Shown here in pieces: positions 2,970 to 63,253 of a stretch of DNA of 64,000 nucleotides. The notes under the pieces are model-generated. The model saw only the letters and a program-made list of their open reading frames with translations. It had not been told where the DNA came from and did no database searches. A program made the position numbers and the translations under genes. Position 1 is the first letter of the stretch, and every line of letters begins with the position of its first letter. Source of the DNA: Methanosarcinaceae archaeon (lineage in GTDB: Archaea; Halobacteriota; Methanosarcinia; Methanosarcinales; Methanosarcinaceae); the NCBI GenBank assembly GCA_023544565.1, contig JAMJFS010000008.1, positions 1-64,000 on the forward strand, read 5' to 3'.

Positions 2970-3030
2970 ATATAGTCTATAGGATTATGTAGTTTAAGTC
3001 AATCCGAGCGTAGCGAGGATTTTCTTGTAG
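2970..3030 (+). repeat. Two-hairpin dispersed repeat, copy A
   Basis: First hairpin ATAGTC/GATTAT (one G-T pair), then a linker, then a second hairpin: AATCC-GA-GC, loop GTA, GC-GA-GGATT, ending TTTTCTTG. The tandem GA/GA mismatch and triloop are shared with the other copies. It is followed, after an inserted MITE, by copy B in the same orientation. Confidence 0.85.
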
Positions 3031-3035
3031 TATAT

Positions 3036-3144
3036 AGAGGCTGTCCAACAATCCAAAATCACAGATAAAAGAAGGACAAATATGGCTTTAAATCAATAAA
3101 TAAGGTTTGATTTTATCGTCCATAGTAATTGTTAGACAGCCTCT
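3036..3144. mobile_element. MITE-like element (109 bp) inside a repeat tandem
   Basis: Terminal inverted repeats of 17 bp with one mismatch: AGAGGCTGTCCAACAAT at 3036-3052 and its complement at 3128-3144. The interior is AT-rich and holds no gene. It separates copies A and B of the two-hairpin repeat; TATA stands on both sides and may be the target duplication. The end sequence resembles those of several bacterial and archaeal insertion sequences, so it is probably mobilised by a transposase encoded elsewhere. Confidence 0.75.
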
Positions 3145-3200
3145 ATAATTTATGAAATTATATAGTTCAAGTTAATGCGAACGAAGTGAGCATTTTCTTG
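3144..3200 (+). repeat. Two-hairpin dispersed repeat, copy B
   Basis: First hairpin ATAATT/AATTAT; second hairpin AATGC-GA-AC, loop GAA, GT-GA-GCATT inside CAAG/CTTG. It lies 25 bases beyond the stop of the P-type ATPase gene, in the opposite orientation to that gene. Confidence 0.88.
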
Positions 3201-3224
3201 ACATATCATTTATGATATGAGATA

Positions 3225-5876
3225 TTACCAAACCCTCTTCTTCGCCTCCTTTTTTTTATGCAGGAATTTCTCGAATTCCACAATAAAAAACACAGTGCTG
3301 GATACCCCTATAATCCGTGCCCAGTCCTCCAGTCCAAGAGGAGCGGTCTTAAACACAGTGTTCATGACCGGATGATACGTGATAAGCATCTGCAATCCCA
3401 TCACAATCGCTGTGCCAAGGAGCATGAACCTGTTGGAGAACAAAGAGCCTGCCACATAGTCATATATAGACTTGGAATTATACAGGTAGAATATCTCAAA
3501 GAAGACAATAGTGTTTAGCGCTATCGTGCGAGCCGTATCAAGTCCTCTGCCATTGTTATCTAATTCGAAGAAAAACAACAGGAAGGTGGCAGCCACCATT
3601 AGCAGGGATACAAGCACAATCCTCCACTTTATCACTGGCAACAGAAGCGGTTCATCAGGACTGCGGGGAGGCCTGTTCAGCAATCCCTTTTCCTTTGGCT
3701 CCATAACAATGGACACACCAAGACCTATTGCAGTGATGGTATTTATCCACAGGATATGCAGGGGCAAAAGAGGAAGCGTGACACCAAGCAGGATAGCTGC
3801 CATTATCATAAGCCCTTCGCCGCCATTGGTTGGCAGGGTCCACAATATAATCTTTTGGATCTTGCTGTACACGTCCCGTCCTTCCTCAACAGCAGAGACT
3901 ATGGATGCAAAATTATCATCTGCAAGCACCATATCAGACGCCTCTCTGGCAACCTCGGTGCCGGAGAGCCCCATTGCGATGCCGATGTCGGCAGTCTTCA
4001 AGGCAGGAGCATCATTGATGCCGTCACCTGTAACTGCCACAACCTCTCCTTTAGCCTGAAGAAGCTGGACAATACGGAACTTGTGTTCAGGTGCAGTTCT
4101 GGCAAATACCGAAACAGTATCCAGCGCTTCAGTAAGCTGTTCATCAGTCATTTTCTCAATATCGCTGCCGCCCAGTGCGCCTTTTGTCCTTATGCCAAGT
4201 TGTGCTGCAATGCTCTGGGCTGTTTTTAAGTGGTCGCCTGTAATCATGATGACCCGTATGCCCGCAGTCTTGCATTTCTCGATGGAGATCTTCACCTCTT
4301 CTCTGGGCGGGTCGATCATACCCTGCAATCCTACAAAGACCAGATTCTGGATATCATCAGGCTTTATCTGCTCAACATCAGCTCCCACCTTTTTATATGC
4401 CATACCGATGACCCTCAGTCCCCCTGAAGCCATCTCCTCTGCGGCCTTATGAACACTGTCAACATCAAGCATACCACTATACTCATAATTGCACAGCTCC
4501 ATCATCTTCTCAGGCGAGCCTTTCACATAGATCAGCTTGTTGCCGTCAGAATCCATGTGCAGTGTTGCCATGTACCTGGTTTCTGACTGGAATGGTATGA
4601 CATCAAGTCTTGGCAGGTGGAATTTTCCAGCCTTTAAGCCAGTTATCAAAAGCGCCCCTTCCGTTGGGTCACCATCTATCCCATTATCCTCCACAATGGA
4701 TGCATCATTGCACAGCATACCTACTCTTAAGGTCTCGATCAGTGCAGGATTGCTTATGGGTTCTATTCTTAAGTCATTCAGGATAAAGTTTCCTTCAGGT
4801 ACGTAACCTGTTCCTGTGACATGATACCTTTTCCCTGACGTGTATATTTCTGTCACAGTCATCTGGTTTTTTGTCAGGGTTCCTGTCTTGTCAGAGCATA
4901 TGACCGTGGCCGAGCCCAGAGTTTCCACAGCAGGCATTGTGCGTATGATGGCATTTTTTGATGCCATTGACTTGATAGCGATCGCAAGTGAAATGGTAAT
5001 AATAGCAGGAAGCCCTTCAGGGATTGCTGCTACGGCCAGACTGACAGCGGCAAGGAATATCTCCACTGTCTCCATCCCCCAAAGTATGCCGACCACGAAC
5101 GTGAACAAAGATATCAGTAGAATCACCACTGAGAGGATAAGACTTAAGCGTGCAATCTTTTTTACAAGGGGTGTGGCCATCTCACCACTCTGCCGGATGA
5201 ACTCGGATATCTTGCCTATCTCAGTATCCTTTGCCGTTGCAACAACAATACCCCTGCCCAATCCCTGGGTGATCAGGGTGCCTGCAAAGAGCATGTTCTT
5301 CTGGTCAGCAGGCGGGATGTTCTCCTTTTCGATAGGGTCGGTAATCTTTTCCACAGCCATGGATTCTCCGGTCAGCAGAGATTCATCCGCCCTTAGATTT
5401 TTCACATAAAAGGCGCGCAGGTCTGCAGGCACCCGGTCACCGGCTTCTAACAAAACGACATCACCTGCAACCAGTTCCCTGCTGTGTATTGTCCAGCGCT
5501 GACCATTCCTGATAACGCTGGCCTCAGGCACCAGCATCTTTGCAAGTGATTCAAGGGCACGCTCGGCCTTATACTCCTGAATAAAACCTATAATTGCATT
5601 TGCAAGCACAACCCCCATAATGACGGTCATGTCTGCATATTCCTTCAAAAATAATGTTACTACTGCAGCGGCGAGCAGTACATAGATCAGAGGACTTGCA
5701 AACTGTTTCAGGAACTTGTATACAGGCCCGTGCTCTTTTTTTGGCTCGACCTCATTGTAACCGTCCCTTATAAGCCTGTTTGACGCTTCCTCCTGGGTGA
5801 TGCCATCCAGACTGCTCTGCAAAAGTGATATGATTTCATCTGCAGGAATATGATACCATTTTACTTCACTCGCCAT
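3225..5876 (-). CDS. Cation-translocating P-type ATPase (P2 type)
   Basis: An 883-residue P2-type ATPase, the class of Ca2+ and Na+/K+ pumps, driving cation transport across the membrane with ATP. Visible motifs: N-terminal cation ATPase domain (1-70), TGES at 169-172 in the actuator domain, PEGLP at 286-290 in helix M4, phosphorylation motif DKTGTLT with Asp329, GDPTEGALL in the nucleotide domain, TGDGINDAP in the P domain, and a six-helix C-terminal membrane region. PEGLP is typical of Ca2+-ATPase-like pumps, so Ca2+ is the best guess; Na+ or H+ cannot be excluded. The length is normal. It is monocistronic, flanked by repeats at its 3' side. Confidence 0.93.
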   Translation of the reverse strand: MASEVKWYHIPADEIISLLQSSLDGITQEEASNRLIRDGYNEVEPKKEHGPVYKFLKQFASPLIYVLLAAAVVTLFLKEYADMTVIMGVVLANAIIGFIQEYKAERALESLAKMLVPEASVIRNGQRWTIHSRELVAGDVVLLEAGDRVPADLRAFYVKNLRADESLLTGESMAVEKITDPIEKENIPPADQKNMLFAGTLITQGLGRGIVVATAKDTEIGKISEFIRQSGEMATPLVKKIARLSLILSVVILLISLFTFVVGILWGMETVEIFLAAVSLAVAAIPEGLPAIITISLAIAIKSMASKNAIIRTMPAVETLGSATVICSDKTGTLTKNQMTVTEIYTSGKRYHVTGTGYVPEGNFILNDLRIEPISNPALIETLRVGMLCNDASIVEDNGIDGDPTEGALLITGLKAGKFHLPRLDVIPFQSETRYMATLHMDSDGNKLIYVKGSPEKMMELCNYEYSGMLDVDSVHKAAEEMASGGLRVIGMAYKKVGADVEQIKPDDIQNLVFVGLQGMIDPPREEVKISIEKCKTAGIRVIMITGDHLKTAQSIAAQLGIRTKGALGGSDIEKMTDEQLTEALDTVSVFARTAPEHKFRIVQLLQAKGEVVAVTGDGINDAPALKTADIGIAMGLSGTEVAREASDMVLADDNFASIVSAVEEGRDVYSKIQKIILWTLPTNGGEGLMIMAAILLGVTLPLLPLHILWINTITAIGLGVSIVMEPKEKGLLNRPPRSPDEPLLLPVIKWRIVLVSLLMVAATFLLFFFELDNNGRGLDTARTIALNTIVFFEIFYLYNSKSIYDYVAGSLFSNRFMLLGTAIVMGLQMLITYHPVMNTVFKTAPLGLEDWARIIGVSSTVFFIVEFEKFLHKKKEAKKRVW

Positions 5877-6090
5877 GTAGGATAAGAGAAAGTCAGATTA
5901 TTAATAACTTTTTGCAGATTAAATGAAAACAAGTTGTGTGGGCTGTATTGAAGTGATTTTATAAAATATGGCGATGACGATCTTTTTTTACGTTATCGAA
6001 AAATCAATTTTAAATATGTATAGCTACGCCTGTAATTATTCACAATAGCAAATTGAAAGATTTTTTAATTCCTTGAGGCCTGAAGTGATC

Positions 6091-6633: not shown

Positions 6634-6933
6634 TCATTTTCGTTTTTGAAGACGTCACTAGTACTCTGCTCCTTTATAAAACAATATGTATGGTTTAGAA
6701 CAACGGTTTTTTTTATATATGATTGAAATGCATGGCAAATCATGGAAATTAATAAAACTTCAATAGAATCAAATAAGTGTAGCGGAGAATTGTGATGATA
6801 ACGTTTTATACAGGTTTTATACTATATTGTACTGGGGATATCGTCAGCGACTTGATCTCTCTTTTCGGTTAACTGATATAATTTAAGGTTAGTTGTATAG
6901 TTTGAAATGTAAGTAAAAGTGAGGAGAAAAGAT
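6634..6933. other. Divergent intergenic region, promoter-bearing
   Basis: The 300 bases between the divergent J-domain and phosphofructokinase genes hold no gene that I can support. A TATA-like GATATAATTT at about 6874-6883 is well placed for the phosphofructokinase promoter, and CTTTATAAAAC near 6670 could serve the J-domain gene. Confidence 0.4.
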
Positions 6934-8310
6934 ATGCCACCATTGTCAGATATTCATGAGTTGCATCCTATTGAGAAAGAACTTCTGGGGTATGACCTAT
7001 CAGTAAGAAAACTGGGTGAATGTTTATACGAATCCAATGATATTTATCTGAACAATAAATTCGAGAACCAGCAGTTCTATGTACCAGACAACGAGCATAT
7101 ACTGGCTGTGATCGATAAAAGTTCAGTGGAATCCCTTTTGGAAAAAGGCATAGATCTGCCTGCTTTTGAGAAAGCAGGGCCAAAGAAAAAGCTGTTTTTT
7201 GAGTTAGGCAAAGCCACATATGCTATTGTGACCTGCGGAGGACTCTGCCCGGGGCTTAATTCTGTGATCAGTGGGATCGTCATGCTGAATTTTTTTCGCT
7301 ATAATAATAAGGTGGGATATGGCATTCGCTATGGTTATGCCGGTTTCATCAAGGAAAACGGTCACGAAGTAATACCTCTGACACCGGAATTTGTGGAATT
7401 TATCCACTCTCAGGGCGGCACTGTACTTGGTTCATCCAGAGGGCCGCAGGATACAAAAAAGATTGTCGACCGGCTGGTGGAACTGGAAGTGAAGATCCTT
7501 TATGCTATCGGCGGCGATGGCACTCTCCGGGGAGCATTGGATATCGCGGGGGAGATCGAGAAGCGAGGTTTGAAGATAGCCGTGATCGGTATTCCCAAGA
7601 CCATTGACAACGATATCAATTTCATCGATAAATCTTTTGGTATGGAAACTGCTTTTTCGGAAGCTTGTGTTTCCATCTATGCGGCGCATGTTGAGGCCAG
7701 GTCTGCTGTTAACGGTATAGGCATCGTTAAGGTGATGGGGAGGGAGTCTGGTTTCATTGCTGTGAATGCCACGCTTGCAACGAATGATGCGAATTATTGT
7801 TTGATACCTGAGATGGAATTTGAACTGGAGGGAGAGAAGGGGTTTTTAAGACAGCTGGAAAAACGGCTTTTGGAGCGTAAGCATGCAGTTATTGTGGTTT
7901 CGGAGGGGGTGGGACAAAAATATGTTTCTGACCCTGATAATCCTCAATACGACCTGTCCGGGAACGTAAAACTCCTTGATTTTGGGATTTATTTGAAGGA
8001 GCGTATAGAAGCCCACCTGAAAACGAAAAATATCCCGACAACGATCAAGTATCTTGACCCGAGTTATAGTATCCGAAGCCGCCCTCCGACGCCAAATGAT
8101 TCGATCTTCTGTTTACAACTGTCACAGATGGCGGTTCATGCAGGCATGTCCGGAAGAACGGGTATGCTGGTTGGGATATTCAACGGTCAGTTCACTCATC
8201 TGCCAATGGAAATTGTGACTGCAAAAAGGAAAAAGGTTGATCTGGATTCCCAGTTGTGGCACTCTGTGCTGCAAATGACAGGCCAGCCGGCATCATTCAA
8301 GAATGAGTGA
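6934..8310 (+). CDS. pfkA: PfkA-type 6-phosphofructokinase
   Basis: A 458-residue member of the PfkA superfamily (long, TP0108-like group), phosphorylating fructose 6-phosphate in glycolysis. Signatures: GGLCPGLNSVISG near residue 103, GGDGTLRGA, PKTIDNDI and MGRESGF. The glycine in GGDG is the residue usually associated with ATP rather than pyrophosphate as donor, while the lysine in PKTIDND is shared with pyrophosphate enzymes, so the donor needs an assay. The ATG at 6934 has GAGGAG seven bases upstream and is preferred over the GTG at 6919. Next downstream is a glucan phosphorylase, fitting glycogen breakdown. Most methanogens use an unrelated ADP-dependent kinase for this step. Confidence 0.85.
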   Translation: MPPLSDIHELHPIEKELLGYDLSVRKLGECLYESNDIYLNNKFENQQFYVPDNEHILAVIDKSSVESLLEKGIDLPAFEKAGPKKKLFFELGKATYAIVTCGGLCPGLNSVISGIVMLNFFRYNNKVGYGIRYGYAGFIKENGHEVIPLTPEFVEFIHSQGGTVLGSSRGPQDTKKIVDRLVELEVKILYAIGGDGTLRGALDIAGEIEKRGLKIAVIGIPKTIDNDINFIDKSFGMETAFSEACVSIYAAHVEARSAVNGIGIVKVMGRESGFIAVNATLATNDANYCLIPEMEFELEGEKGFLRQLEKRLLERKHAVIVVSEGVGQKYVSDPDNPQYDLSGNVKLLDFGIYLKERIEAHLKTKNIPTTIKYLDPSYSIRSRPPTPNDSIFCLQLSQMAVHAGMSGRTGMLVGIFNGQFTHLPMEIVTAKRKKVDLDSQLWHSVLQMTGQPASFKNE

Positions 8311-8516
8311 CTGTTTTTCCAGCAATCATCAACATTTATGTTTTCTACTTTAATCAGTGTATCAGTATTCTCCAAAACCATACTTTATCTGCAATATGGA
8401 TTTTTTTTCCTGTTAACGAACTAAAAAATATTTACATGAAACAGTTCATGTTCATGGCAATTCCATCATAATATGTATATAGAATCGAACATTAATTTTA
8501 GCACAGGAGTTGGAGT

Positions 8517-10232
8517 ATGTTACAATTTGATAAAGGGATTGATAAAAAAGATCGGATCATAGCATATTACTCAATGGAGATAGGGCTCGATAGTCGCATT
8601 CCAACATATAGCGGCGGACTTGGTGTGCTGGCAGGAGATACTATACGATCATGTGCAGACCTTGGCGTACCTATAGTGGGGATCACATTATTGAGTGAAA
8701 GGGGATATTTCTACCAAAAACTTGACTCCGATGGAAACCAGATAGAAATGCCAGTATCCTGGAACAAAGACAACTTTTTGACACTTCTGCCCGCAAAAAC
8801 TACTCTGCATATAGAAGGGAGAAATGTCACAGTGCAGGTCTGGCAATATACCGTAACAGGTGTGGGCGGTGCCACTGTTCCCGTATACCTGCTTGATACG
8901 AACGTTGAGGGAAATTCAGAATACGATTGCGCCATAACAAGCTATCTGTACGGCGGAGATCTGCAGTATCGTTTCGCGCAGGAGATGGTGCTCGGTATTG
9001 CAGGAGTTAGTATACTAAAAGAACTCGGTTATACTGGTATAAGGAAATACCACATGAACGAAGGACATGCTGCTCTGCTGACCCTTGAATTGCTGGAGCG
9101 TGATAAGGTTGACAATAATAAGCCAGCTTATGACCCGCATAACGTGAGGAAGATGTGTGTTTTCACCACCCATACGCCTGTTCCTGCAGGTCATGACAAG
9201 TTCCCGCACGGTATCGTCCGGAACATGTACGGCAATATCTCACGCTTCGAAATGGACGATGAAATACACACAGATGGCATGCTGAATATGACCCTCCTTG
9301 CATTGCGTATGAGCCGCTTTATCAATGGTGTGGCAAAGAAACATACTGAAGTCTCAAGAAGCATGTTCCCTGGATATAGTATAGATTCCATCACAAACGG
9401 GGTACACTCTCCGACATGGGTTTGCGAATCTTTTGCAAAATTATATGATAAATACATGCCAGGATGGCGAACTGATCCATTCACCCTCCGATATGCTCTC
9501 AGCATACCGAATCCCGAGATATGGGATGCCCATATGGTAGCTAAAAAGAGACTTATCGATAAGGTCAACAGTCTGACAAACGCAGGGATGGACCATGATA
9601 TTTTGACAATAGGATTTGCACGGCGGGCAACAGCATATAAGCGTATGGAGTTGCTGTTTCATGACATTGAGAATCTTGTTCGCATCAATGACAATGCGGG
9701 TGAGATACAGATAATCTTTGCAGGCAAAGCCCATCCTGCCGACTTAGGTGGAAAGGAAACTATCAGGCGCATCCATACCCGTATAGAAGAATTAAGTGGG
9801 AGGATAAAGATAGCCTATCTTCCAAATTATAACATGGGTCTATCCAGATTGATGATCTCAGGTGTAGATGTATGGTTGAACACACCGCAGCGACCCATGG
9901 AAGCATCAGGAACAAGCGGTATGAAAGCATGCCACAACGGTGTTCTCAATCTGAGCGTGTTCGACGGCTGGTGGCTTGAAGGATATATAAAAGACGCTAC
10001 CGGATGGGGCATAGGTCTAAAGCCCACTGATGCAAAAGAAGAAATAAAAACTGATAATGCGGCGGATGCAAGTGATCTGTATAATAAGCTTGAACATGAA
10101 ATACTACCTATGTTCTACGATGACAAGCCAAAATGGATGGATATGGTATGTCACAGTATTGCTCTCAATGCATCGTTCTTCAATACACACCGGATGATAC
10201 AGCAATATATCACAAGCGCATACTGTCACTGA
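8517..10232 (+). CDS. Alpha-glucan (glycogen) phosphorylase, short type
   Basis: A 571-residue GT35 enzyme that releases glucose 1-phosphate from glycogen or maltodextrin with phosphate. It is the short archaeal/bacterial form, lacking most of the N-terminal regulatory part of the roughly 800-residue enzymes. Visible: the N-terminal YYSMEIGLDSRIPTYSGGLG, the active-site region HMNEGHAAL, and the pyridoxal-phosphate lysine in EASGTSGMKACHNG near residue 468. An AGGAG precedes the ATG. It lies about 200 bases after the phosphofructokinase, and together they connect stored glucan to glycolysis. Confidence 0.92.
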   Translation: MLQFDKGIDKKDRIIAYYSMEIGLDSRIPTYSGGLGVLAGDTIRSCADLGVPIVGITLLSERGYFYQKLDSDGNQIEMPVSWNKDNFLTLLPAKTTLHIEGRNVTVQVWQYTVTGVGGATVPVYLLDTNVEGNSEYDCAITSYLYGGDLQYRFAQEMVLGIAGVSILKELGYTGIRKYHMNEGHAALLTLELLERDKVDNNKPAYDPHNVRKMCVFTTHTPVPAGHDKFPHGIVRNMYGNISRFEMDDEIHTDGMLNMTLLALRMSRFINGVAKKHTEVSRSMFPGYSIDSITNGVHSPTWVCESFAKLYDKYMPGWRTDPFTLRYALSIPNPEIWDAHMVAKKRLIDKVNSLTNAGMDHDILTIGFARRATAYKRMELLFHDIENLVRINDNAGEIQIIFAGKAHPADLGGKETIRRIHTRIEELSGRIKIAYLPNYNMGLSRLMISGVDVWLNTPQRPMEASGTSGMKACHNGVLNLSVFDGWWLEGYIKDATGWGIGLKPTDAKEEIKTDNAADASDLYNKLEHEILPMFYDDKPKWMDMVCHSIALNASFFNTHRMIQQYITSAYCH

Positions 10233-13055: not shown

Positions 13056-13958
13056 ATGACATTTAGTCTAACGGAATCATTGGATTCATTTGTAAAAAAG
13101 CACGATAACCGTCAATTGTTGACAATTCCAATTGCGGTCTTTGTGTTATCGATATTGGTATTGGCATTTACGTTTGCAAGCACAGGTGCGCCTGTTAAAC
13201 TTGGAATGGAATTTAAAGGCGGCACCATGATCGCAGTCACAACAAGTGATTCCGCTCTTTCCATTGAAGCCAAATATTCCGAATATCCTATAATCGATGC
13301 CAGATCGGCAGGCGAGAGAGTTGTCATCCAATTTGGTCCAATGGATGGAAAAGTGCAGCGAGCACTTGAAGATGACATCACAGCCAGTTATTCAGATGTA
13401 GAGATCAAACAGATCGGTGCAGTATATGGCACTGCTCTCCAACTACAGGCAGTAAAAGCCGTAATATTATCATTTTTGGGAATGGCAGCAGTTGTTTTCT
13501 TGATATTCAGGACAACTGTTCCATCATTGGCGGTAGTGGCATCTGCATTTTCGGATATAATAATCGCAGCCGCATTCATGAACATTGCAGGGATCGAGTT
13601 ATCACTTGGAACTGTTGCTGCACTCTTAATGCTTATCGGTTATTCTGTAGACAGTGACATTCTCCTTACAACACGCGTACTCAAACGACGTGGTACGGTC
13701 GAGGAAAAGATATCACGGGCAATGCACACTGGTATCACAATGACAACGACCACACTCGCAGCACTTGTCGTGATGTATGTTGTATCCACTTATTCATATC
13801 TCATCTCTTCATCACTCCCACAGATGTCCATGCTTTCGGACATCTCAATTGTTCTCATCTTTGGACTGGCAGCCGATATTATGAACACATGGTTGCTAAA
13901 CACGGGACTCCTTCGCTGGCATGTTGAGCGAACATCACCAAGGAGGCGAAGGGCATGA
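13056..13958 (+). CDS. secF: Protein-export membrane protein SecF
   Basis: A 300-residue RND-type membrane protein that with SecD assists Sec-dependent export. The first transmembrane helix (about 24-45) is followed by an extracellular domain with [10 protein letters not shown] (the SecF GG motif), then five C-terminal helices containing [13 protein letters not shown], matching the SecF consensus around the charged helix-4 residues. ATG 13056 follows GGAG at 13043-13046. Its stop overlaps the secD start by four bases (ATGA). The F-then-D order is usual for archaea. Confidence 0.94.
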
Positions 13959-15664
13959 GGGGAGATGAAGTAAAGGATAAAGAGAATCAAAGTATTTTCA
14001 AAAACACACGTGTCCGCTTATTCATACTGGTACTTCTTGCATCACTGGTCGCGATCCATCCATGGTATGTTTCCGGTGAAGGTTTAACGACCAATCTCAA
14101 TTACGGTCTTGATCTTGAAGGCGGTTCATGGCTCCAGATCAAACTTCAGGGTGCTGTCGTACAGGTTGATGCAGATCCAGGAATGATCGTTAAACAAATG
14201 ATAGAATCCACAATTGGAAAGTCCATAGAAATTACGGATGTAGGTATTCCGGATGATGGTGCTACCAATAGTCAGGCTTATGTTACGTTCACAACAGACG
14301 ATTTCATCACACAAACACAAATAGACCTACTCAGGCTTGGACAGGCAACGATCAATCGCAAGGACAACAAGACCGAAGTCACACTATACTCTACTAAAGA
14401 GTCGCTTATAGTTGCATTTTTATCAAATTCACTCAGCACTGAGGTAGTGCCTATTGCTTACGTGGACGGCGTACAATATGAGATAAGGACTGCCGTATCT
14501 GAGCAGGAACTGCAGGATCTTATGGCAACTGTTGGTGGTTCTATCGTAAAGAACACAGATGGGACACTGAAATACCGTGAAGGTGTTACAACAGAGACTC
14601 GGGATATGACCAAAAATATCCTGACTGATAAATTGAATTCATATTCACTTGGCTTGAAAGAAATACCAGTTCGTACAGTTGGCGAGGATTATATCTTGAT
14701 TGACTTCGCAGGTATTGATCTTGCTACTGCAAAGGATATTGTGGAAAAACCTGGTAAATTTGAGATTCGTATACAGACAACGGATAATGACAGCGTACAT
14801 GTCCTTTATGGTGACGATATTGAAAGTGTTGGAGTTCCGGGATTCCATGATGGCCAATGGAGCACACCATTCAGGCTAACCGAATCGGGTGCACTTGCAC
14901 TCCAGAGGATCGCTATAGAAACAGGCGCATCCAGCAATCCGGATGCACACTGGCTGGATATGTATCTTGATGAAAATATAGTTTACAGTGCTCCCTTGAG
15001 TCCAAGTGCAGCTACAAGGCTAGAACAGTTTCCGATATACTCATGGGAATCCTCTACAGGTGGAGATGAGGAAAGCAAGATTCAGGCTGAACAATTACAG
15101 ATACACCTTCGAGCAGGTGCGCTTCCTGTGAATGTGGAACTTGTAGGGTCAGGCCACGTTGATGCGGGACTTGGTAAGCAGTTCAAGACCCAATCTGTAA
15201 TAGCAGGTCTTCTTTCGCTGCTTGCAGTCGCTTTTGTTGTGTTCCGCAGGTATCATCAAAAAGAAATATTGATTCCGATGGTAGCAACTTCCGTCAGTGA
15301 AGTTTTTATGATCCTTGGATTTGCGGGTGCAGTGGGCTGGCAACTTGACCTTGCAAGTATTGCAGGTATAATTGCAGTGATAGGAACTGGTATTGACCAT
15401 CTTGTGATCATCACGGATGAAGTTCTTTATGAGGGAAAACTGCCATCAATAAAGATATATCTTGAAAGGATAACAAAGGCATTTGCCATCATTTTTGCTG
15501 CTGCGGCAACAACCACGATCGCAATGTCACCTCTTGTTGTGATGGGATTTGGTGCTCTTAAAGGGTTTGCGATAACCACTATCGTTGGTGTGATGATAGG
15601 TGTATTGGTCGCAAGACCTGTTTACGGGATCGTGATAAAAGAGGTATTGCAAAAAACAGATTGA
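13955..15664 (+). CDS. secD: Protein-export membrane protein SecD
   Basis: A 569-residue partner of SecF. An N-terminal helix (about 22-42) is followed by GLDLEGGSWLQIKL, the SecD hallmark, then a large extracellular portion and five C-terminal membrane helices with GTGIDHLVIITDE in helix 4, where the charged residues line the membrane core. It is translationally coupled to secF by a four-base overlap. Length and architecture match archaeal SecD. Confidence 0.94.
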   Translation: MRGDEVKDKENQSIFKNTRVRLFILVLLASLVAIHPWYVSGEGLTTNLNYGLDLEGGSWLQIKLQGAVVQVDADPGMIVKQMIESTIGKSIEITDVGIPDDGATNSQAYVTFTTDDFITQTQIDLLRLGQATINRKDNKTEVTLYSTKESLIVAFLSNSLSTEVVPIAYVDGVQYEIRTAVSEQELQDLMATVGGSIVKNTDGTLKYREGVTTETRDMTKNILTDKLNSYSLGLKEIPVRTVGEDYILIDFAGIDLATAKDIVEKPGKFEIRIQTTDNDSVHVLYGDDIESVGVPGFHDGQWSTPFRLTESGALALQRIAIETGASSNPDAHWLDMYLDENIVYSAPLSPSAATRLEQFPIYSWESSTGGDEESKIQAEQLQIHLRAGALPVNVELVGSGHVDAGLGKQFKTQSVIAGLLSLLAVAFVVFRRYHQKEILIPMVATSVSEVFMILGFAGAVGWQLDLASIAGIIAVIGTGIDHLVIITDEVLYEGKLPSIKIYLERITKAFAIIFAAAATTTIAMSPLVVMGFGALKGFAITTIVGVMIGVLVARPVYGIVIKEVLQKTD

Positions 15665-21963: not shown

Positions 21964-22108
21964 TAAGGTGAGAATTCCCCTCAATCTTTTTGTCTTTTAC
22001 AGTAATACTTGGATCAATGTTTCTTTTTAGGCGAAAGAGGGAATAATAATTTAAGTAGAAATATTTGAGGGGCATTTTCTTATTCTCTCCCACTTTTTTT
22101 AATTGTAT
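21964..22108 (+). other. 3' region of DUF1699 gene with long-range inverted repeat
   Basis: CCCCTCAA near 21977 and TTGAGGGG near 22067 are complementary, and T-rich runs follow each. They could form a termination structure. No gene is seen here. Confidence 0.35.
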
Positions 22109-22163
22109 ATGTTTTATAAACATATAGTTTGAGTTAACGCGAACGAAGTGAGCGTTTTTTCGT
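22109..22163 (+). repeat. Two-hairpin dispersed repeat, copy C1
   Basis: First hairpin ATGTTT/AAACAT; second hairpin AACGC-GA-AC, loop GAA, GT-GA-GCGTT. Both stems differ from other copies by paired changes. Copy C2 follows directly. Confidence 0.88.
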
Positions 22164-22167
22164 AGTA

Positions 22168-22224
22168 TATGATCTATAAGATTGTGTAGTCCAAGTCAAT
22201 TCGACCAAAGGGAGAATTTTCTTG
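22168..22224 (+). repeat. Two-hairpin dispersed repeat, copy C2
   Basis: A weaker first hairpin (GATC/GATT region) and a perfect second hairpin AATTC-GA-CC, loop AAA, GG-GA-GAATT within CAAG/CTTG. It lies between the DUF1699 and MscS genes. Confidence 0.88.
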
Positions 22225-22382: not shown

Positions 22383-23258
22383 ATGTCCATTCTTGATAAT
22401 ATACCTTCGTGGTTTACAGGGAACATCGCAAATGCCTTGTTCATATTTGTTGTTGTCATATCTACCATAATTGTTGCAAGAATTGTTGATCGTTTGCTCA
22501 AAGCCCAGATAAAGATGCTGAGTGCAAAAATGAATGTCGATGAGATGGTTTACGGGCTCATCAGGCGTATTGCTATCGCTTTCGTATACATTGTAGGCCT
22601 CATGATCGTGGTCAGCAGCGTTCCATTTCTTGAAAACATGTCGCTCGCTATTCTTGCAAGTGCAGGATTTGCGGGACTTGTCGTGGGTATGGCAGCCCAG
22701 AGCACCCTTTCCGACATTATTTCAGGCATGTCATTAGCAGTATTCAGACCTTTTAGGTCAGGGGATATTGTAACAATCCATAATGAATATGGTACAATAT
22801 CCGACATCACGCTCGGACATACGGTGATCATAACATGGGATAATCGCAGGCTAATCATACCAAACCACATAATCAGTGAAGAAGCAATAATCAACTGGTC
22901 CATCAGTGATCCAACCATACTCTGGCCTATCAACATCGGTATCAGTTATGATTCTGATATCGACCTTGCACGTAGCATCATGATCGAAGAAGCCAAAAAA
23001 CATGCAGAAGTAATGCGCTTAAACGATGTGCGTAAATATCATTCCGAGGTAGTTGGTGGTGAAGAAATAAAAGTTCGTGTGACTGAACTCGGTGATTTTG
23101 CAGTTAATCTCAGGCTTTACATATGGGTTTCGGATCGTTCAAAGGCATTCTCTACAGGATGCGACCTTATAGAATCAATAAAGAAAAGATTTGATGCAGA
23201 AGGTATTGAAATACCATTCCCATATCGAACGATTGTCTACAAAAAAGATCTTACATAA
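22383..23258 (+). CDS. MscS-family mechanosensitive ion channel (third paralogue)
   Basis: A 291-residue MscS-type channel with helices at about 15-35, 58-80 and 86-112; the pore helix reads AGFAGLVVGMAAQSTLSDIISG and is followed by FRPFRSGDIV and the typical soluble C-terminal domain. An AGGTGA sits upstream of the ATG. It is closer in motif to bacterial MscS pore helices than the two at the left end of the window. It is preceded by a tandem of the two-hairpin repeat. Confidence 0.92.
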   Translation: MSILDNIPSWFTGNIANALFIFVVVISTIIVARIVDRLLKAQIKMLSAKMNVDEMVYGLIRRIAIAFVYIVGLMIVVSSVPFLENMSLAILASAGFAGLVVGMAAQSTLSDIISGMSLAVFRPFRSGDIVTIHNEYGTISDITLGHTVIITWDNRRLIIPNHIISEEAIINWSISDPTILWPINIGISYDSDIDLARSIMIEEAKKHAEVMRLNDVRKYHSEVVGGEEIKVRVTELGDFAVNLRLYIWVSDRSKAFSTGCDLIESIKKRFDAEGIEIPFPYRTIVYKKDLT

Positions 23259-23623
23259 AACTAATGTGAAATTAAATTTATGTTTTTGTTTAGATGGTGT
23301 AGCGTTGTGGTACAGAGTGTTTAATATGTTTATGATAAAAACGATTCACCTCACGCGCGTAGCGCGCATTGCTCTGCATACACATCGAATTTTCAATCGC
23401 CATCTGCACATTTCACAAGTTTTAATAAATGTTTTGCTAACTATTTATTTAATTCAAATTGGCATAGATGGAACGTGCCGCCTGCAGGCGGTCGCACTGT
23501 TTTTGGTTTCAAATCGAATCATTTCATTTGCGAAATCATTTTAAAAAAGCTATACAAATACAAATTTATTATAGAAAAAAAGAATGCACGCATTTTGCGT
23601 GCATTTGATCGATTTTAATTTGA
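23259..23623. repeat. GC-rich hairpin pair between convergent genes
   Basis: Two hairpins about 130 bases apart: GCGC-GTA-GCGC inside 23354-23368 and CCGCCTGCAGGCGG at about 23480-23493 with flanking GTG/CAC. The spacer is AT-rich and gene-free. The arrangement matches the paired hairpins at 38.0, 40.4 and 41.0 kb. Confidence 0.6.
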
Positions 23624-28213: not shown

Positions 28214-28251
28214 TTCAATAAATTAATTATAACGTAATTTTTTTTTCGTTG

Positions 28252-28308
28252 TATATTTTTATAACTATATAGTGCGAGTAAATTCGACCAAAATGGAGGA
28301 TTTTCTTG
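28252..28308 (+). repeat. Two-hairpin dispersed repeat, copy D
   Basis: A degenerate copy: AATTC-GA-CC, loop AAAA, TG-GA-GGATT then TTTTCTTG. It ends 15 bases before the purF start, so it either forms the purF leader or contributes TATA-like sequence to its promoter. Confidence 0.72.
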
Positions 28309-38270: not shown

Positions 38271-40322
38271 ATGAGCAGGGCTGGTTTTTCTTATAATGGT
38301 GTTCTTGATTACGAACACGGAATACAGAAGGAATGGATAACTACCAACGGTCTTGGAGGATATGCCTCATCAACGATCATTGGTGCAAATTCAAGAACAT
38401 ATCATGGACTGCTGGTCGCTGCACTGAATCCACCTGTTGACAGGACTGTTTTGCTCTCATCGATCGATGAGGAGATCATTGTCGGTGAGAAAATATTCCG
38501 TCTTTCAACACACAAATATCCGAACACGGTTTATCCCACAGGTTTTGAATATCTAAAACAATTTTCTGTTGATCCTTTTCCAACTTCTGTCTACCAGATA
38601 GGAGATATGGAGATTGTCAAGCGTGTTTTCATGGTCTATGGACAAAATACTACCGTCATAAAATACGAAGTGAACAATGGTGGCGACAGTGGTGACGACG
38701 ACGGTTCCAGCAATGTAATACTGCGTCTTTATCCGCTTATCAGCATGCGGAATTTTCATCATACCATAAGGTCGAACAATGTTGGTTTTGCACAGGATGC
38801 AAGCGAATATGAAACAACACTTACCGCAAATGACGTTTCGCTGTCGCTTACATCCAATGCCAGATATTCACAAGGTGGGACATGTTTCTACAATCTTGAA
38901 TATGACACCGAACGCTCACGGGGGCAGGCATATCAGGAGGATAACTACAACTCTGGATTTTTTGAGATCAAACTTAAGAAAGGTGTGAACAATATTTTTG
39001 TTGTTGCATCGGTTGATGAAATATCACCCATGAAAATCAGTGATGTTGAAGAACTGTACGAGGAAGCACTTGTACGGCTGAGCTCACTTGAAGATAAGAC
39101 TGGACTTGACGATGACTTTGTTCTGGGCCTTATACCTGCTGCAGATTCGTTCATTGTGAACCGTGCATCTACTGGCTCAAGAACGATAATAGCCGGATAC
39201 CACTGGTTCTCTGACTGGGGGCGGGATGCTATGATATCCCTGCCAGGACTTACACTTGTGACGGGAAGGTTCGAGGATGCTGCACAGATCCTTTTAAGTT
39301 TTGCAAAGAACTGCAAGGATGGTTTGATACCAAACAGGTTTGCTGATCTTAGTGACCAAAAACCGGATTACAATACTGTTGATGCTTCTCTGTGGTTCGT
39401 GCATGCTGTGGGAAAATATTTTGCATATACCAAAGATGTGAATTTTGTCAGAAAAATGTGGGATACTGTTGACAGCATCATTCGCAACTACATGAATGGC
39501 ACTCATTTTGATATCCACATGGATGCAGATGGGCTGATAACACACGGAAGCCAGCTAACATGGATGGATGCCAAGATCGGCGACTTTGAAGTAACACCAA
39601 GACGCGGCAAGGCATGTGAGATCAATGCCCTGTGGTATAATGCACTAAAGACCGCATCCCATCTGGCAGAACACCTGCAAAAAGACACATCCTTCTACGA
39701 CAGGTTAGCGGATGATGTTAAACAAAGTTATGCCGCTACGTTCTGGAATTCTGATGAGGAGTGTCTTTTTGATTGTGTTGATGGTAATATTTCCGGTAGT
39801 GTTTCCGGTAGTGTTGATGCCGGTAAGAGCGGAATGGTCAGTCGGGATGCATCGATCCGACCAAACCAGATACTTGCAGTTTCACTTCCATACACTATGT
39901 TATCACGGGAGATGGAGATCGATATTGTGAACAGGGTTGAGCGCGACCTTTTGACACCTGTCGGACTTCGGACTTTGGCAATGAATGACCCTTTGTGCAA
40001 GAAACTGTGTGACGGCGACATGATAGCGCGCGATATGGCATATCATAACGGCACTGTCTGGGCATGGCTAATGGGTCCTTATGTTTCTGCGTACACAAAG
40101 GTCAACAACCATTCCAAAGAAAGCCGTGAGCATACGCGCGCGATATTGCTGGGTTTGAGAGAACACTTGCAGGATGGCGGTATCGGGACAATTTCCGAGA
40201 TATTCGATGGCGACGCGCCACATAAACCGCGCGGGTGTATCTCGCAGGCATGGAGTGTTGCTGAAGTTCTGCGTGCGTATGTTGAAGATGTGGTTAGGGG
40301 TGTGAATGGAGAGATTGGTTAG
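38271..40322 (+). CDS. Glycogen debranching enzyme (amylo-alpha-1,6-glucosidase, GH133)
   Basis: A 683-residue archaeal-type debranching enzyme hydrolysing alpha-1,6 branch points. The N-terminal glucan-binding domain (1-270) starts with EWITTNGLGGYASSTIIGANSR; the catalytic barrel contains GYHWFSDWGRDAMISLPGL and LTWMDAKIG, with CISQAWSVAEVLRAY at the end. It is part of the same-direction series of glycogen-degrading genes, separated from GH15 by a repeat pair. Its last codons are duplicated about 0.6 kb downstream. Confidence 0.94.
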   Translation: MSRAGFSYNGVLDYEHGIQKEWITTNGLGGYASSTIIGANSRTYHGLLVAALNPPVDRTVLLSSIDEEIIVGEKIFRLSTHKYPNTVYPTGFEYLKQFSVDPFPTSVYQIGDMEIVKRVFMVYGQNTTVIKYEVNNGGDSGDDDGSSNVILRLYPLISMRNFHHTIRSNNVGFAQDASEYETTLTANDVSLSLTSNARYSQGGTCFYNLEYDTERSRGQAYQEDNYNSGFFEIKLKKGVNNIFVVASVDEISPMKISDVEELYEEALVRLSSLEDKTGLDDDFVLGLIPAADSFIVNRASTGSRTIIAGYHWFSDWGRDAMISLPGLTLVTGRFEDAAQILLSFAKNCKDGLIPNRFADLSDQKPDYNTVDASLWFVHAVGKYFAYTKDVNFVRKMWDTVDSIIRNYMNGTHFDIHMDADGLITHGSQLTWMDAKIGDFEVTPRRGKACEINALWYNALKTASHLAEHLQKDTSFYDRLADDVKQSYAATFWNSDEECLFDCVDGNISGSVSGSVDAGKSGMVSRDASIRPNQILAVSLPYTMLSREMEIDIVNRVERDLLTPVGLRTLAMNDPLCKKLCDGDMIARDMAYHNGTVWAWLMGPYVSAYTKVNNHSKESREHTRAILLGLREHLQDGGIGTISEIFDGDAPHKPRGCISQAWSVAEVLRAYVEDVVRGVNGEIG

Positions 40323-45993: not shown

Positions 45994-47793
45994 CTACGTA
46001 ACCTTTATGCCAGTCAGGAGTTCGTAATAATGTTTTGCAGGCATATCCCAATTCATTTCTTTTGCAAGAAGATTTGCTTCTTCACAAAGAAGATTGTATT
46101 TCACCTTGTCATGAAAATATGTATCAATGAAATAATCCATCGCAAGTGCATAATCCACAATAGTCTCATTGTAGGACATATCTATATTGTCCACAACGAT
46201 CACACCACCCATACCCATTACAAGACGCTTCAGAGTCTTTAATGCATCACTGAAACCACACACCTTGCTGACAATGCTCGGAGTTGATTCCTTGCCTGCT
46301 TCAAGTCCGGTCAGCAGGAATGGGTCATACCTGGACGGGAAAATGCCGGCAACACAACCTGACATCAACTCTTCTAGAGTAATATTGAGACCGCCATCCG
46401 TAGATGATATCCATTGAGGATACAGCACAGCTGAGACGCATCTTTTACCACTTGGGATTTTAGAGCACTCAAGTCCTCTTTCTTCGATCATACTTTGCAG
46501 CCGGAGTTCATCACCAACAAGAACTTCTTTTGGAAGATTTATCGGGAAACCATCCGGCAGATTTGATTTTGGTCCATGTGCTGCAATTATAAAACACACA
46601 ATCCTGACATCTTCGTCAAGTTTTCCACCCAGAATTTCCATCTTTACCATGCGGTCAAGCATTACAAGTGAATCAAGCAGATCAGGATAACCTTTGTTCT
46701 CTATCTCTATACGCGATATCGAGAATAAAGGTATAATCTTTTTGTAGGGGATCTGTTCACCATCGTGGTATTTATGCAGGTTTTCAGACAAAAAATTCTG
46801 GATATTTTTGCGGAATTGTGTTTTCTTATCCCAATCGGTTTCACCATCATCAAGGGTTACTCCGTTTCGGACTAAAATTGAATCAACACCATAGAACAAT
46901 TTTGTTTCCTTACTGGTAGAATTCCCAACAGCTGTGACCACATCGGCATAGCTCGAAAGTGATTCCAGTTTTGCAAACGCTAGGGGGACACCCTCAACCC
47001 ACGAACTGTCATTGTTTCGGATCTTTTGTATGGAAAGATGCCCTGCACACCTTCCCGGCAATGTTGCATGGAATGTGGCAACAGACTTAACGGGGATTCC
47101 CATTTTTTCAAGTCGGGCAATCGCATAGAATACCCCGAATTCGTGGCAATGTAATGAAACTTGCATATTTGGCATAAGCGATTTTGCAAAATCCGTAATT
47201 GCCGTGTCATGATATTCTCTTGCCTTCTCTTCATTTAGAGTGACGAGTGCACGTACGAATTCTGATATTGCATAGGACAGGTTAAGATAATGAGTATATT
47301 CTGAACCGTTTCCCAAATTGTCATACTTTAGCGAATCAAGATTTATCAATTCGTAGGCTTCGGATTTTATCTTGTTTGTAAGTGACACACTGGTGCCCTT
47401 ATAATCAGTAATGATCTTGCCAAAATTGTCGGTCTTGAACATTAAGAAACCAATTTTAGTCTCACCGACTTTCCTGACACCTGGTATGATCTCGATACCC
47501 TCGATCCTGACAGCCTCAATCGCCGCTGCTAATTCCCCGTCAAGATCAAACTCATCGAACTCGCTCATATCAGTGATACGATTTAGTCCTTTATTCCAGT
47601 CAGATCCACTCGATCCATAATATGGGCCTGCAACAAGAATCCTTGGATTATCGCCATCACTTATTGCCCCCGAATTGAAAAGTGATGCAAGAGTCATAGC
47701 TTCAGCATCAATGACATTCCAGATACCACCCATCTTATTAGATTTTGGACCTGCTTCTTCACCTGCAAGTATTATCCACTTTCGTTCTAACAC
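45994..47793 (-). CDS. GT3-like glycogen synthase
   Basis: A 599-residue glycosyltransferase resembling the eukaryotic-type (GT3) glycogen synthase. Matching features: GGIWNVIDAEAMTL near the start, LHCHEFGVFYAIARLEKMGIPVKSVATFHATLPGRCAG in the middle, and FPSRYDPFLLTGLEAG near the C-terminus. The GTG start at 47793 has GGAGG eight bases upstream. It lies at the end of a co-directional series of three glucan-forming genes. GT3 members use UDP-glucose, in line with the nearby GalT. Confidence 0.82.
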   Translation of the reverse strand: MLERKWIILAGEEAGPKSNKMGGIWNVIDAEAMTLASLFNSGAISDGDNPRILVAGPYYGSSGSDWNKGLNRITDMSEFDEFDLDGELAAAIEAVRIEGIEIIPGVRKVGETKIGFLMFKTDNFGKIITDYKGTSVSLTNKIKSEAYELINLDSLKYDNLGNGSEYTHYLNLSYAISEFVRALVTLNEEKAREYHDTAITDFAKSLMPNMQVSLHCHEFGVFYAIARLEKMGIPVKSVATFHATLPGRCAGHLSIQKIRNNDSSWVEGVPLAFAKLESLSSYADVVTAVGNSTSKETKLFYGVDSILVRNGVTLDDGETDWDKKTQFRKNIQNFLSENLHKYHDGEQIPYKKIIPLFSISRIEIENKGYPDLLDSLVMLDRMVKMEILGGKLDEDVRIVCFIIAAHGPKSNLPDGFPINLPKEVLVGDELRLQSMIEERGLECSKIPSGKRCVSAVLYPQWISSTDGGLNITLEELMSGCVAGIFPSRYDPFLLTGLEAGKESTPSIVSKVCGFSDALKTLKRLVMGMGGVIVVDNIDMSYNETIVDYALAMDYFIDTYFHDKVKYNLLCEEANLLAKEMNWDMPAKHYYELLTGIKVT

Positions 47794-47910: not shown

Positions 47911-47974
47911 CAAGTAAATATTCACTTTGTTCGCATTAACTTGGACTACATAATCTTATAGATTATATACTATA
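47911..47974 (-). repeat. Two-hairpin dispersed repeat, copy E
   Basis: First hairpin ATAATC/GATTAT; second AATGC-GA-AC, loop AAA, GT-GA-ATATT (partly decayed) then CTTG. It lies 12 bases after the stop of the winged-helix gene, in the same orientation. Confidence 0.83.
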
Positions 47975-55462: not shown

Positions 55463-55542
55463 CTTTTTTCACTGATCTTGTGTTGTAATCAAATATCGTA
55501 TGACCTTCAATTTTTTATTTCATCTACTTTTAGGTGACTCAA

Positions 55543-56598: not shown

Positions 56599-56644
56599 TT
56601 ATCACACGAGAACTAATGTCAACCCAAAAATATGAGGCAAATAT

Positions 56645-59384: not shown

Positions 59385-59499
59385 ATTGTATCCCTGTGTG
59401 AAAGTTAGTGTTAAAGTTATTGTGAATATTAGTGTTTAAGGTTATATTTGGACCAACTATGGTGAGTCATTTGATATATAAAAAAACAAAAAATGCAGG

Positions 59500-59922: not shown

Positions 59923-60036
59923 CTGGTTGATCTCCTTTTGGTTTTTGAATTGAATTTATGAGTATGATGTTAACGATAAATTAATGGAAAATATATAAGA
60001 CCTTACACTCTTTTTTGGCAATAGAGGTTTATAAAA

Positions 60037-61014: not shown

Positions 61015-61129
61015 CTGGCGATATGCCAGAACACCCAGATCAATTAACCGTTTTGATATAATATCCCTCGAATGTGTAGATTGGTTTTAAGGTATTTACA
61101 TGTTTGGAGATTAGTTTTTTGGATATTTG

Positions 61130-61242
61130 ACCATTTACATATATATAGTGAGCAACGTCTATTTGCTAGAATTTGTGATGTATAAGTTTAATTACCTTGT
61201 AAACACTTGCAACATCATAATCATAATATGGAGATATTAATA
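61130..61242 (+). promoter_or_regulatory. Promoter and leader of the Cys-rich peptide gene
   Basis: TATA-like ACATATATATAG at 61137-61148 should start transcription near 61172, leaving a leader of about 70 bases before the ATG at 61243, which has GGAGA nine bases upstream. Confidence 0.55.
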
Positions 61243-61419
61243 ATGGCTCAAGTAATGAATGAAAATATTGAAAAACTTATACAATACATAGCAGATGAAT
61301 TACCACACGGGTGCAAGGATATCAAATGTTATCAGTGTTCTTTAAGTGTAAATTATGGTGCTAATAAGCATTTGTGCGAGACAATGAAAATGTTAGCCGG
61401 GCGCAGATCTAAACTTTGA
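61243..61419 (+). CDS. Small four-cysteine peptide, putative radical SAM substrate
   Basis: A 58-residue protein: an acidic, helical first part (MNENIEKLIQYIADELPHG) like a leader, then a cysteine core with C24, C29, C32 and C45, and a basic tail. It resembles the methanogen Cys-rich peptides I recall as the TIGR04165 family, encoded next to radical SAM enzymes of TIGR04083 type; such an enzyme lies 490 bases downstream on the same strand. ATG 61243 with GGAGA upstream is preferred. A zinc-binding role is the alternative. The modification is inferred. Confidence 0.7.
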   Translation: MAQVMNENIEKLIQYIADELPHGCKDIKCYQCSLSVNYGANKHLCETMKMLAGRRSKL

Positions 61420-61766
61420 TCCTTACGTAAACAGAGTCATTTTTATTTTGATATTTCAGTTCAAATAAATCTGTTACAGGCATTAACCTGAACTTTTTGT
61501 TTATTTATTTTAATTGGATAGCAGTGCCTATGTGCCGTGCGAGCGGAATGAAGATTTGTCAGCAGGTGTGCGGGCGGGGTGCTTTTTAAAATATTTACGT
61601 ATTTTTAAGTTAGGGTTTGAAGGATGTTTACTATAGTTACATTTCAGATGTAAAATATTCGTCAAAAAAATGTATTGCTCAGACATAGTTACAATGTTGT
61701 TAAATAAATCTCAAAAATTCCACAGGAAAACTATTAAAACCATTACTACTTTGGAAAACCCACAAT

Positions 61767-61826
61767 CAAGAAAATGCTCACTTTGTTCGCATTAACTTGG
61801 ATTACATAATCTTATAGATTATATAC
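61767..61826 (-). repeat. Two-hairpin dispersed repeat, copy F1
   Basis: On the minus strand: first hairpin ATAATC/GATTAT; second AATGC-GA-AC, loop AAA, GT-GA-GCATT within CAAG/CTTG. Fully paired outside the invariant GA/GA and TT/TT positions. Confidence 0.88.
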
Positions 61827-61890
61827 AACGATAAAATTCTCCCCTAAGGTCGAATTAACCCAACGCACATAATTTTACAAATTATATACA
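61827..61890 (-). repeat. Two-hairpin dispersed repeat, copy F2
   Basis: First hairpin ATAATT/AATTAT; second AATTC-GA-CC, loop TTAG, GG-GA-GAATT. The element ends 20 bases before the radical SAM gene, overlapping its promoter or leader. Confidence 0.82.
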
Positions 61891-61910
61891 TTAAAAATGG
61901 AGATACCCCA

Positions 61911-63092
61911 ATGTCCTTCCACGTAATGATAATCCCTACATTAGGCTGCCCATCCAATTGTAAATACTGCTGGAGTTCCGAAGAAGATTCACCGGTAATG
62001 ACTACTGAGACCGTTGAAGATATAGTTAAATGGCTTCAAAACTTCCGCAAAGAACCGGTTACTTTTACTTTCCATGGCGGGGAACCGCTGCTTGCCGGTG
62101 CGGACTTTTTCCGAAAAGCTCTGCCAACACTGGCTGATGGGTTGCATGAACAGGGAATTGCTTTTGCTTTGCAGACGAATCTGTGGAAAATGACCCCTGG
62201 GATCGCACAGATACTGGCGGAATATAATATCCCGATCGGTTCCAGTCTGGACGGTCCACAGGAACTCACCAATTTCCAGAGAGGGGAGGGATACTACGAA
62301 AAGACCATGGCAGGATATGAGATTGCTAAAGCCAATGGTCTCAATGTTAGTTTCATATGTACCTTTACATCCCATTCAGTAAAATTCAAAGAAGATATTT
62401 TCAAATTTTTCCTTGATAATGGTTTAAATCTTAAATTACATCCAGCACTACCATCCTTACGCGATGATAACCCTGAAAAATGGGCACTTCCTCCTGAAGA
62501 ATATGGGGAATTGTTAGTTTATCTTCTTGACCAATACCTGAAAAACCTGAACCGCATACAAATGATGAACATTGACAACCTCTGTCAATGTTATTTCGGT
62601 GGCAGAGGCACAGTATGTACTTTCGTAGATTGTATGGGAGATACTTTCGCAGTAGGACCAGATGGTAGCATATACCCTTGCTATCGTTTCGTAGGCATGC
62701 CAAAATACGTAATGGGTAATGTTCGTGACCAGCCCACCGTAGAAGATCTTGCAAAGTCTGAGCCATGGAAACTCATGTTCCAGTTCAAAGACTACGTGGA
62801 CAAGGAATGCGGAGATTGTACACATATCAAATACTGTAGGGGTGGATGCCCCTATAACGCCATAGCACCGACAGAAGGCGAAGTAAAAGGTGTTGATCCA
62901 CACTGCATCGCATACAAGAGGATATTCGAAGAGATCGTAGATCAGGCAAATGAGGAACTATTTGGCGGCGGTGCCGGCTCAGGCCCTGCGATGTTTGGCT
63001 TTGGAGGAGGAGCCCCATCTGCACCGAGTGGAAAAGCAGGAATAATGGATATTGTACGTAAACACTCCACACCGGATGAAGTGCAGTATTAG
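61911..63092 (+). CDS. Radical SAM/SPASM peptide-modifying enzyme
   Basis: A 393-residue radical SAM enzyme with a SPASM-type C-terminus. The SAM cluster cysteines are in CPSNCKYCWSSEE (near residues 13-20), followed by FTFHGGEPLLAG. Late cysteines in GSIYPCYRFVG, KECGDCTHIKYCRGGCPYNA and HCIAYKR bind auxiliary clusters, as in enzymes that alter cysteine or other residues in ribosomal peptides or sulfatases. A Gly-rich stretch ends the protein. The neighbouring Cys-rich peptide is the natural substrate candidate. GGAGA lies seven bases before the ATG. Confidence 0.88.
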   Translation: MSFHVMIIPTLGCPSNCKYCWSSEEDSPVMTTETVEDIVKWLQNFRKEPVTFTFHGGEPLLAGADFFRKALPTLADGLHEQGIAFALQTNLWKMTPGIAQILAEYNIPIGSSLDGPQELTNFQRGEGYYEKTMAGYEIAKANGLNVSFICTFTSHSVKFKEDIFKFFLDNGLNLKLHPALPSLRDDNPEKWALPPEEYGELLVYLLDQYLKNLNRIQMMNIDNLCQCYFGGRGTVCTFVDCMGDTFAVGPDGSIYPCYRFVGMPKYVMGNVRDQPTVEDLAKSEPWKLMFQFKDYVDKECGDCTHIKYCRGGCPYNAIAPTEGEVKGVDPHCIAYKRIFEEIVDQANEELFGGGAGSGPAMFGFGGGAPSAPSGKAGIMDIVRKHSTPDEVQY

Positions 63093-63190
63093 CAGTAACA
63101 ATGGTAGTAATGGTAAGGATAAGCGGTAAGCCTACTTCATACTTTTATTCTAATCATAATCCCATATTTGCAATTAGTCCTAATTGAAAA

Positions 63191-63253
63191 CAAGAAAATC
63201 TTCGCTACGCTCGGATTAACTTGCACTATATAATTCTATAAATTATATGCTAT
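63191..63253 (-). repeat. Two-hairpin dispersed repeat, copy G
   Basis: First hairpin ATAATT/AATTAT; second AATCC-GA-GC, loop GTA, GC-GA-AGATT within CAAG/CTTG (one unpaired position). It lies between the radical SAM gene end and the purL end. Confidence 0.85.

Follow-up and report, generated by a model that had tools for sequence, protein, structure and literature searches.

The window, by which is meant the whole 64,000-nucleotide stretch of DNA that was analysed, belongs to a MAG of the ANME-3 genus (1.78 Mb in 72 contigs, 92.5% complete), referred to below as the host genome. It carries genes for ABCE1/RLI and a DUF1699 protein, which mark it as archaeal, glycogen-metabolism genes (phosphorylase, debranching enzyme and glycogen synthase) at 8517-10232, 38271-40322 and 45994-47793, and three MscS-type channel genes at 104-931, 946-1758 and 22383-23258. 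Nine copies of a two-hairpin repeat are distributed along it. The initial annotation had located all nine correctly; the boundaries of the unit are redrawn here, from a T[A/T]G start to a CTYG end, which gives an element of 60–63 nt:

2969..3027, plus strand: copy 1, with an eroded 5' end and the 3' end TTTTCTTG
3028..3200, plus strand: copy 2, head-to-tail with copy 1, split at 3037-3143 by another miniature element
3037..3143, no strand assigned: unrelated MITE of ~107 bp inside copy 2, with inverted ends GAGGCTGTC.../...GACAGCCTC
22103..22162, plus strand: copy 3, with the target TTTTTTAA on its 5' side
22163..22224, plus strand: copy 4, directly behind the 3' end of copy 3
28249..28308, plus strand: copy 5, preceded by TTTTTTCG, which departs from the X:X' rule set out below
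47911..47972, minus strand: copy 6, preceded by the target TTTTTTTA
61767..61828, minus strand: copy 7, directly behind the 3' end of copy 8 (TTTTATCG)
61829..61891, minus strand: copy 8, preceded by the target ATTTTTA
63191..63252, minus strand: copy 9, preceded by the target TTTTTTCA

Head-to-tail tandems occur at 22103-22162/22163-22224 and 61829-61891/61767-61828, and copies 1 and 2 were originally in tandem too: their junction, with the insert in brackets, reads TTTTCTTG^TAGTATATA[GAGGCTGTCC...GACAGCCTC]TATAATTTATG. The ~107-bp MITE that splits copy 2 has duplicated TATA (3033-3036 and 3144-3147); its ends can also be given as GAGGCTGTCC.../...GACAGCCTC, and the block recurs at genomic loci L002-L008, at several of which it again adjoins the hairpin element. 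Searching the window with a covariance model of the nine copies returns exactly those nine. A degenerate pattern of hairpin 2 matches five of them and nothing in 100 shuffles; an alternative pattern, whose loop was 8 nt long, yielded a sub-variant and a few unrelated matches and was discarded.

Read from 5' to 3', the element comprises T[A/T]G, hairpin 1 (8–10 bp, AT-rich), a 3-nt linker, CRAG, TY, AATNN, GA, 2 bp, the loop, 2 bp, GA, NNATT, TT and CTYG. Among 237 distinct copies the outer stem of hairpin 2 is CG, GC or TA at one pair and CG or TA at the next, the inner pair is GC, CG or AT, and CRAG covaries with the CTYG of the 3' end (CGAG/CTCG, CAAG/CTTG). In 130 distinct copies from relatives, 95.6% of stem cells are paired versus 85.1 ± 0.4 after shuffling, and double-change cells number 257 versus 81.6 ± 6.0, a value reached in 0 of 500 shuffles, with slid controls at 32 or fewer; the alignment being fitted to the model and the copies related, these counts denote strong covariation and not a formal R-scape E-value. 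The compensatory stem changes described initially are therefore real, and they support the contention that the folded form is selected. GA opposite GA, which was said never to change, is indeed present in all nine window copies, but the claim was too strong for the element at large, where it is found in 196 of 237. The C-GNA-G loops pointed out at the same time describe many copies, triloops being C-RNA-G in 146 of 150 cases (GNA in 110), but not those with tetraloops, which are C-RNNA-G in 70 of 80 (GNNA in 62, GNRA in only 4). Loops of the C-GNA-G and C-GNNA-G types stabilise DNA mini-hairpins, and GNA loops also feature in published work; GNRA is the tetraloop type favoured in RNA.

The covariance model also finds copies throughout the host genome, as the initial annotation had supposed, and in related genomes. 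It gives 138 matches, 135 after removal of overlaps, in 1.1 Mb of host DNA, and the whole host genome holds at least 146 copies (150 candidates scored). Genomes of the same genus contain 31–153 copies each, other Methanosarcinaceae genomes 0–1. Of 160 genomes sampled across the order, 25 give matches, chiefly in one other family (ANME-2), and of 394 across the phylum, 8. In a pattern scan of ~85,000 species genomes, which may omit records very close to that of the window, all matches among those listed are ANME-3, ANME-2 or unclassified Methanosarcinales MAGs. The element is thus common in ANME-3, present in fewer copies in ANME-2 and found almost nowhere else in the phylum. A run of N, an assembly gap, lies inside a tandem array at L126 (about 8200-8320), so that array lengths in the host MAG are probably underestimated. 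Judging by the open papers searched, the element is apparently undescribed: none was found that deals with ANME-3 mobile repeats, which is weak evidence of absence.

Most copies are intergenic (124 of 135, in a host DNA that is 83% coding) and their orientation relative to genes is mixed and random, a distribution that fits a selfish element tolerated by its host; the data neither require nor indicate a host function. A terminator or gene-linked role was rejected on account of this mixed orientation together with intergenic contexts near background, in agreement with the earlier argument against a simple terminator. Strong stem covariation and intergenic location would also suit a structured RNA or an RNA-level regulatory element, such as a 3'-UTR stabiliser or terminator, as would the strand preference of the fold: the loop-bearing strand folds more stably in 216 of 230 copies with RNA parameters, and in 195 of 230 with DNA parameters. 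The random orientation, the tetraloops (GTCA and GTTA, with GNRA at 4 of 80), the lack of any match to the element in an Rfam search and the exact mobile junctions and empty sites described next make such an RNA extremely unlikely, and the suggestion that the repeat may act as RNA is disfavoured accordingly by loop types, orientation and precise boundaries.

Copy flanks were matched between loci of the host genome and of its relatives, and filled and empty sites were then aligned. Filled and empty orthologous sites have exact junctions and no target duplication. TTTTCTCG is present once in the empty site at L168 and flanks the insert on both sides at L211. How this is to be read emerges from comparing L203 with window position 23453, two paralogous members of a dispersed repeat. 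The target is the left flank TTTAGTTCA, and the TTTTCTCG on the right is part of the element, since in the empty site TTTATTTAA runs directly into the right flank. Further filled and empty pairs were obtained by comparing L210, L166 and L161 with loci of the host genome itself. The dispersed repeat exceeds 150 bp (window about 23300-23560; L129 about 13900-14150), and in several relatives and at other host loci the hairpin element sits within it, always at the same place. These junctions define the ends as ^T[A/T]GTATA... and ...TTTTCTYG^. Insertion takes place without target duplication directly 3' of TTT-X-T-N-X'^, mostly before T, where X and X' denote complementary bases. The element's own 3' end, TTTTCTYG, matches the target consensus, so that each copy already in place offers a site for the next insertion; hence the head-to-tail arrays. 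Insertion boundaries, target rule and tandem logic had all gone unnoticed in the initial annotation.

In the left flanks of 120 first-in-array copies, TTT occupies positions -7 to -5 (91–97%) and T position -3 (97%), and positions -4, -2 and -1 are variable; the right flank is near-random except at +1, which is T in two thirds. The variable positions are linked: mutual information between -4 and -1 amounts to 0.92 bit, the next-best pair within the target reaching 0.14. With identical flanks collapsed, there are 144 distinct sites, not fully independent as genomes and copies are related, and X and X' are complementary in 130 of them, against an expectation of 62.5 and a maximum of 87 in 20,000 shuffles. 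All four pairs are represented (TA 76, CG 43, GC 7, AT 4), in sites that include GTTC, GTCC and the ATTT type. The excess persists when CTYG sites are removed (89 of 103, shuffle maximum 76) and when T..A sites are removed (54 of 68, shuffle maximum 48). Hundreds of natural insertions thereby take the place of a mutagenesis experiment on target choice and reveal base-pair covariation within the target. A pair between bases of one strand three positions apart forms only in single-stranded DNA, and the target is therefore probably read in folded single-stranded form.

A REP-like element moved by an IS200/IS605-type Y1 transposase (RAYT), with CRAG guiding both cleavage sites, would have in its favour the ssDNA-type hairpin with conserved mismatches, the intergenic location, the absence of target duplication and the covariation of CRAG with the terminal CTYG. 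Guide-target covariation of the IS200/IS605 kind was sought and is at noise for target positions -4 and -1, which nonetheless pair with each other; the one exception is a weak association of CRAG with position -2 (64 versus 52.5 ± 4.2, p=0.004), which may leave room for some guide-type pairing. The parallel with REP sequences and Y1 enzymes, put forward initially along with a search for a TnpA/RAYT gene, fares poorly on the enzyme as well. The only Y1 transposase gene found in the host is IS200-like and has unrelated ends (L133:1604-1957; G000 C3:21604-21957), and no Y1 gene was found in G003, a relative with about 150 copies; both ends of the element, and its target rule, are shared instead with an IS91-family Y2 transposon. 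Like REP/BIME systems with RAYTs, the element consists of ssDNA-type hairpins that are numerous between genes and conserve mismatches in their stems, but it lacks the GTAG foot and a cognate Y1 gene, forms direct tandem arrays instead of inverted BIMEs and follows another target logic. The Y1 reading is largely refuted and very unlikely to be correct.

The IS91-type Y2 transposase, intact or in fragments, was found in 6 of 6 same-genus relatives and in none of the other genera sampled within the family; related genes are present in ANME-2. The protein (~360–475 aa) matches NCBIfam NF033538 (IS91 family; E=5.1e-76, 256 bits, cut-off 125) as well as PF04986 and PF14319, has the HUH motif NPHLH (NHHIH in L287) and a two-tyrosine YxxxY motif (YVGRY, YVARY or YIGRY), and gives no helicase domain matches in Pfam. 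Its transposon begins like the miniature element, as TTTXTNX'^T.G[T/A]ATATAATTTATA, with left ends GTCC^TGGTATATAATTTATA, TTCA^TAGAATATAATTTATA and CTCG^TTGTATATAATTTATA, the flanking tetranucleotides GTCC, TTCA and CTCG being of the GTTC/CTTG type. The 3' end is TGCACCC-GAA-GGGTGC-TTTCTTG^, followed by many different flanks, as is the right end TGCACCCGAAGGGTGCTTTCTTG^; at L257 a miniature copy lies directly behind such a 3' end. A complete element of ~1.5 kb at L286 reads TTTTTCA^ACGAATAGGAAAGTATAAA...GCCCCGAAGGGGCTTTTCTTG^. The IS91-type transposons of the ANME-3 genus and ANME-2 thus have in common with the miniature element the left end, a C-GAA-G hairpin followed by a terminal TTTCTTG, and the rule of target choice. 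In another taxonomic family a miniature copy, at L079, has a divergent left end, ATGTATAGGAAAGTATAAAC, of the type seen at L286, and the local IS91 left ends diverge likewise (L286 ACGAATAGGAAAGTATAAA, L287 ACGTATAGGAATTTATAAAC), the pattern that would arise if the enzyme and the miniature ends changed in step. Common to miniature and transposon are the first ~14 nt and the end formed by hairpin, C-GNA-G loop and TTTCTYG^; internal sequences differ, and the miniature has no ORF. The 3' arm of hairpin 1 and most of hairpin 2 are absent from IS91 ends, which makes descent less certain than shared machinery.

Taken together, the sequence comparisons make it very likely that the repeat is a non-autonomous rolling-circle (HUH) transposon of ~60 nt, a miniature relative of the ANME IS91-family elements, and an IS91-type enzyme probably moves it. 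Recognition as single-stranded DNA, one of two possibilities raised in the initial annotation, and by an HUH-type enzyme, is the best reading. The IS91-type transposase, acting in trans, would nick single-stranded DNA after X-T-N-X' held as a U-turn by the X:X' pair, first at the left end; read-through would then proceed to hairpin 2, which, stiffened by its GNA or GNNA loop and tandem G.A pairs, would serve as terminator of the single-stranded intermediate, whereupon the enzyme would cut the strand after CTYG and join it to a new XTNX' site. Neither an IS91 transposase nor an IS91 right end was found in the host MAG (92.5% complete), and no IS91 transposase in several ANME-2 genomes with 10–43 copies. 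As many of the relatives' copies lie at contig ends, the gene may have been lost or left unassembled in such genomes, and the host copies are possibly relics.

The ANME-2 genomes in which copies are present and IS91 genes undetected could also point to a different HUH enzyme, namely a Rep from a rolling-circle plasmid or virus, in which case IS91 would be just a fellow user of the nick-site code; rolling-circle Reps typically nick at CTTG^. The left end and terminator logic are, however, common to IS91 and the element in detail, and a viral carrier was rejected, the element pattern having no match in viral contigs. A different HUH enzyme is accordingly improbable, and mobilisation by the IS91-type transposase is retained. 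The uncultured anaerobic methane oxidisers of ANME-3 and ANME-2 can thus be credited with an abundant mobile element whose likely enzyme and exact ends are named.

The pairing within the target has a counterpart in CRESS-DNA viral Reps, which need an intramolecular Watson-Crick pair of any identity in the single-stranded nick site (PMC9973303); there the pair is -4:+1 and the site a replication origin, here it is -4:-1 and the site a transposition target. The IS801 targets GAAC, GGAC and CAAG (GTTC, GTCC and CTTG) conform to X..X' (PMC3189936), with CGAC as an exception. It is conceivable, at somewhat under even chances, that IS91-type HUH transposases in general pick their targets by a structural code X-T-N-X', in which any Watson-Crick X:X' pair closes a U-turn of single-stranded DNA. 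If so, the code would explain why IS91 accepts both GTTC and CTTG, a 30-year-old puzzle that becomes directly testable, and would link IS91 transposases to the structural rule of viral Reps.

IS91, IS801 and ISCR elements have their terminus on the 5' side of the transposase gene and their origin on the 3' side (PMC3189936, PMC13393415). The ANME partner has the reverse polarity, its target-flanked end 5' of the gene and its hairpin/CTTG end 3', so that its assignment to the IS91 family, tested against this difference, rests on the protein (IS91 transposase family, HUH and YxxxY), the absent target duplication and the GTTC/GTCC/CTTG tetranucleotide target, to which an element end resembling the target may be added. 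Other differences from those elements are the broader target (any X:X' pair after TTT), the archaeal host and the size of the miniature, 60 nt versus 229–679 nt for mini-IS801; the IS801 transposase is reported to act in trans, as is suggested here. Helitrons have the polarity of the ANME partner, with the target-flanked end 5' and the hairpin/CT-motif end 3' (PMC4778049). Non-autonomous Helitrons further resemble the present element in their HUH enzyme, insertion before T without target duplication, and a 3' terminus at which a hairpin shortly precedes a brief CT motif. Helitron identity was nevertheless rejected: ends are CTYG instead of CTRR, starts T[A/T]G instead of TC, the element is only 60 nt long and the partner is no RepHel protein, having no helicase. 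Miniature and reversed-polarity partner bear on the IS91-Helitron relationship and, if the reading is true, an archaeal IS91 of Helitron polarity with its hairpin-ended miniatures would parallel, in prokaryotes, the pairing of autonomous with non-autonomous Helitrons.

Some copies have an odd left part (TGGATTTTGG...) and were considered as ends of a longer autonomous element; the oddity is in fact due to another MITE, inserted with duplication of 9 bp. This second MITE family (ACACTGTCCCATTTTCCAGTTATTT...AAATAACTGGATTTTGG) is found at L089 (about 470-1030, minus strand), L111:18407, L146:7076 and L110:14840, and at L089 it sits inside a hairpin element, flanked by the 9-bp duplication GTTCGAGTC.
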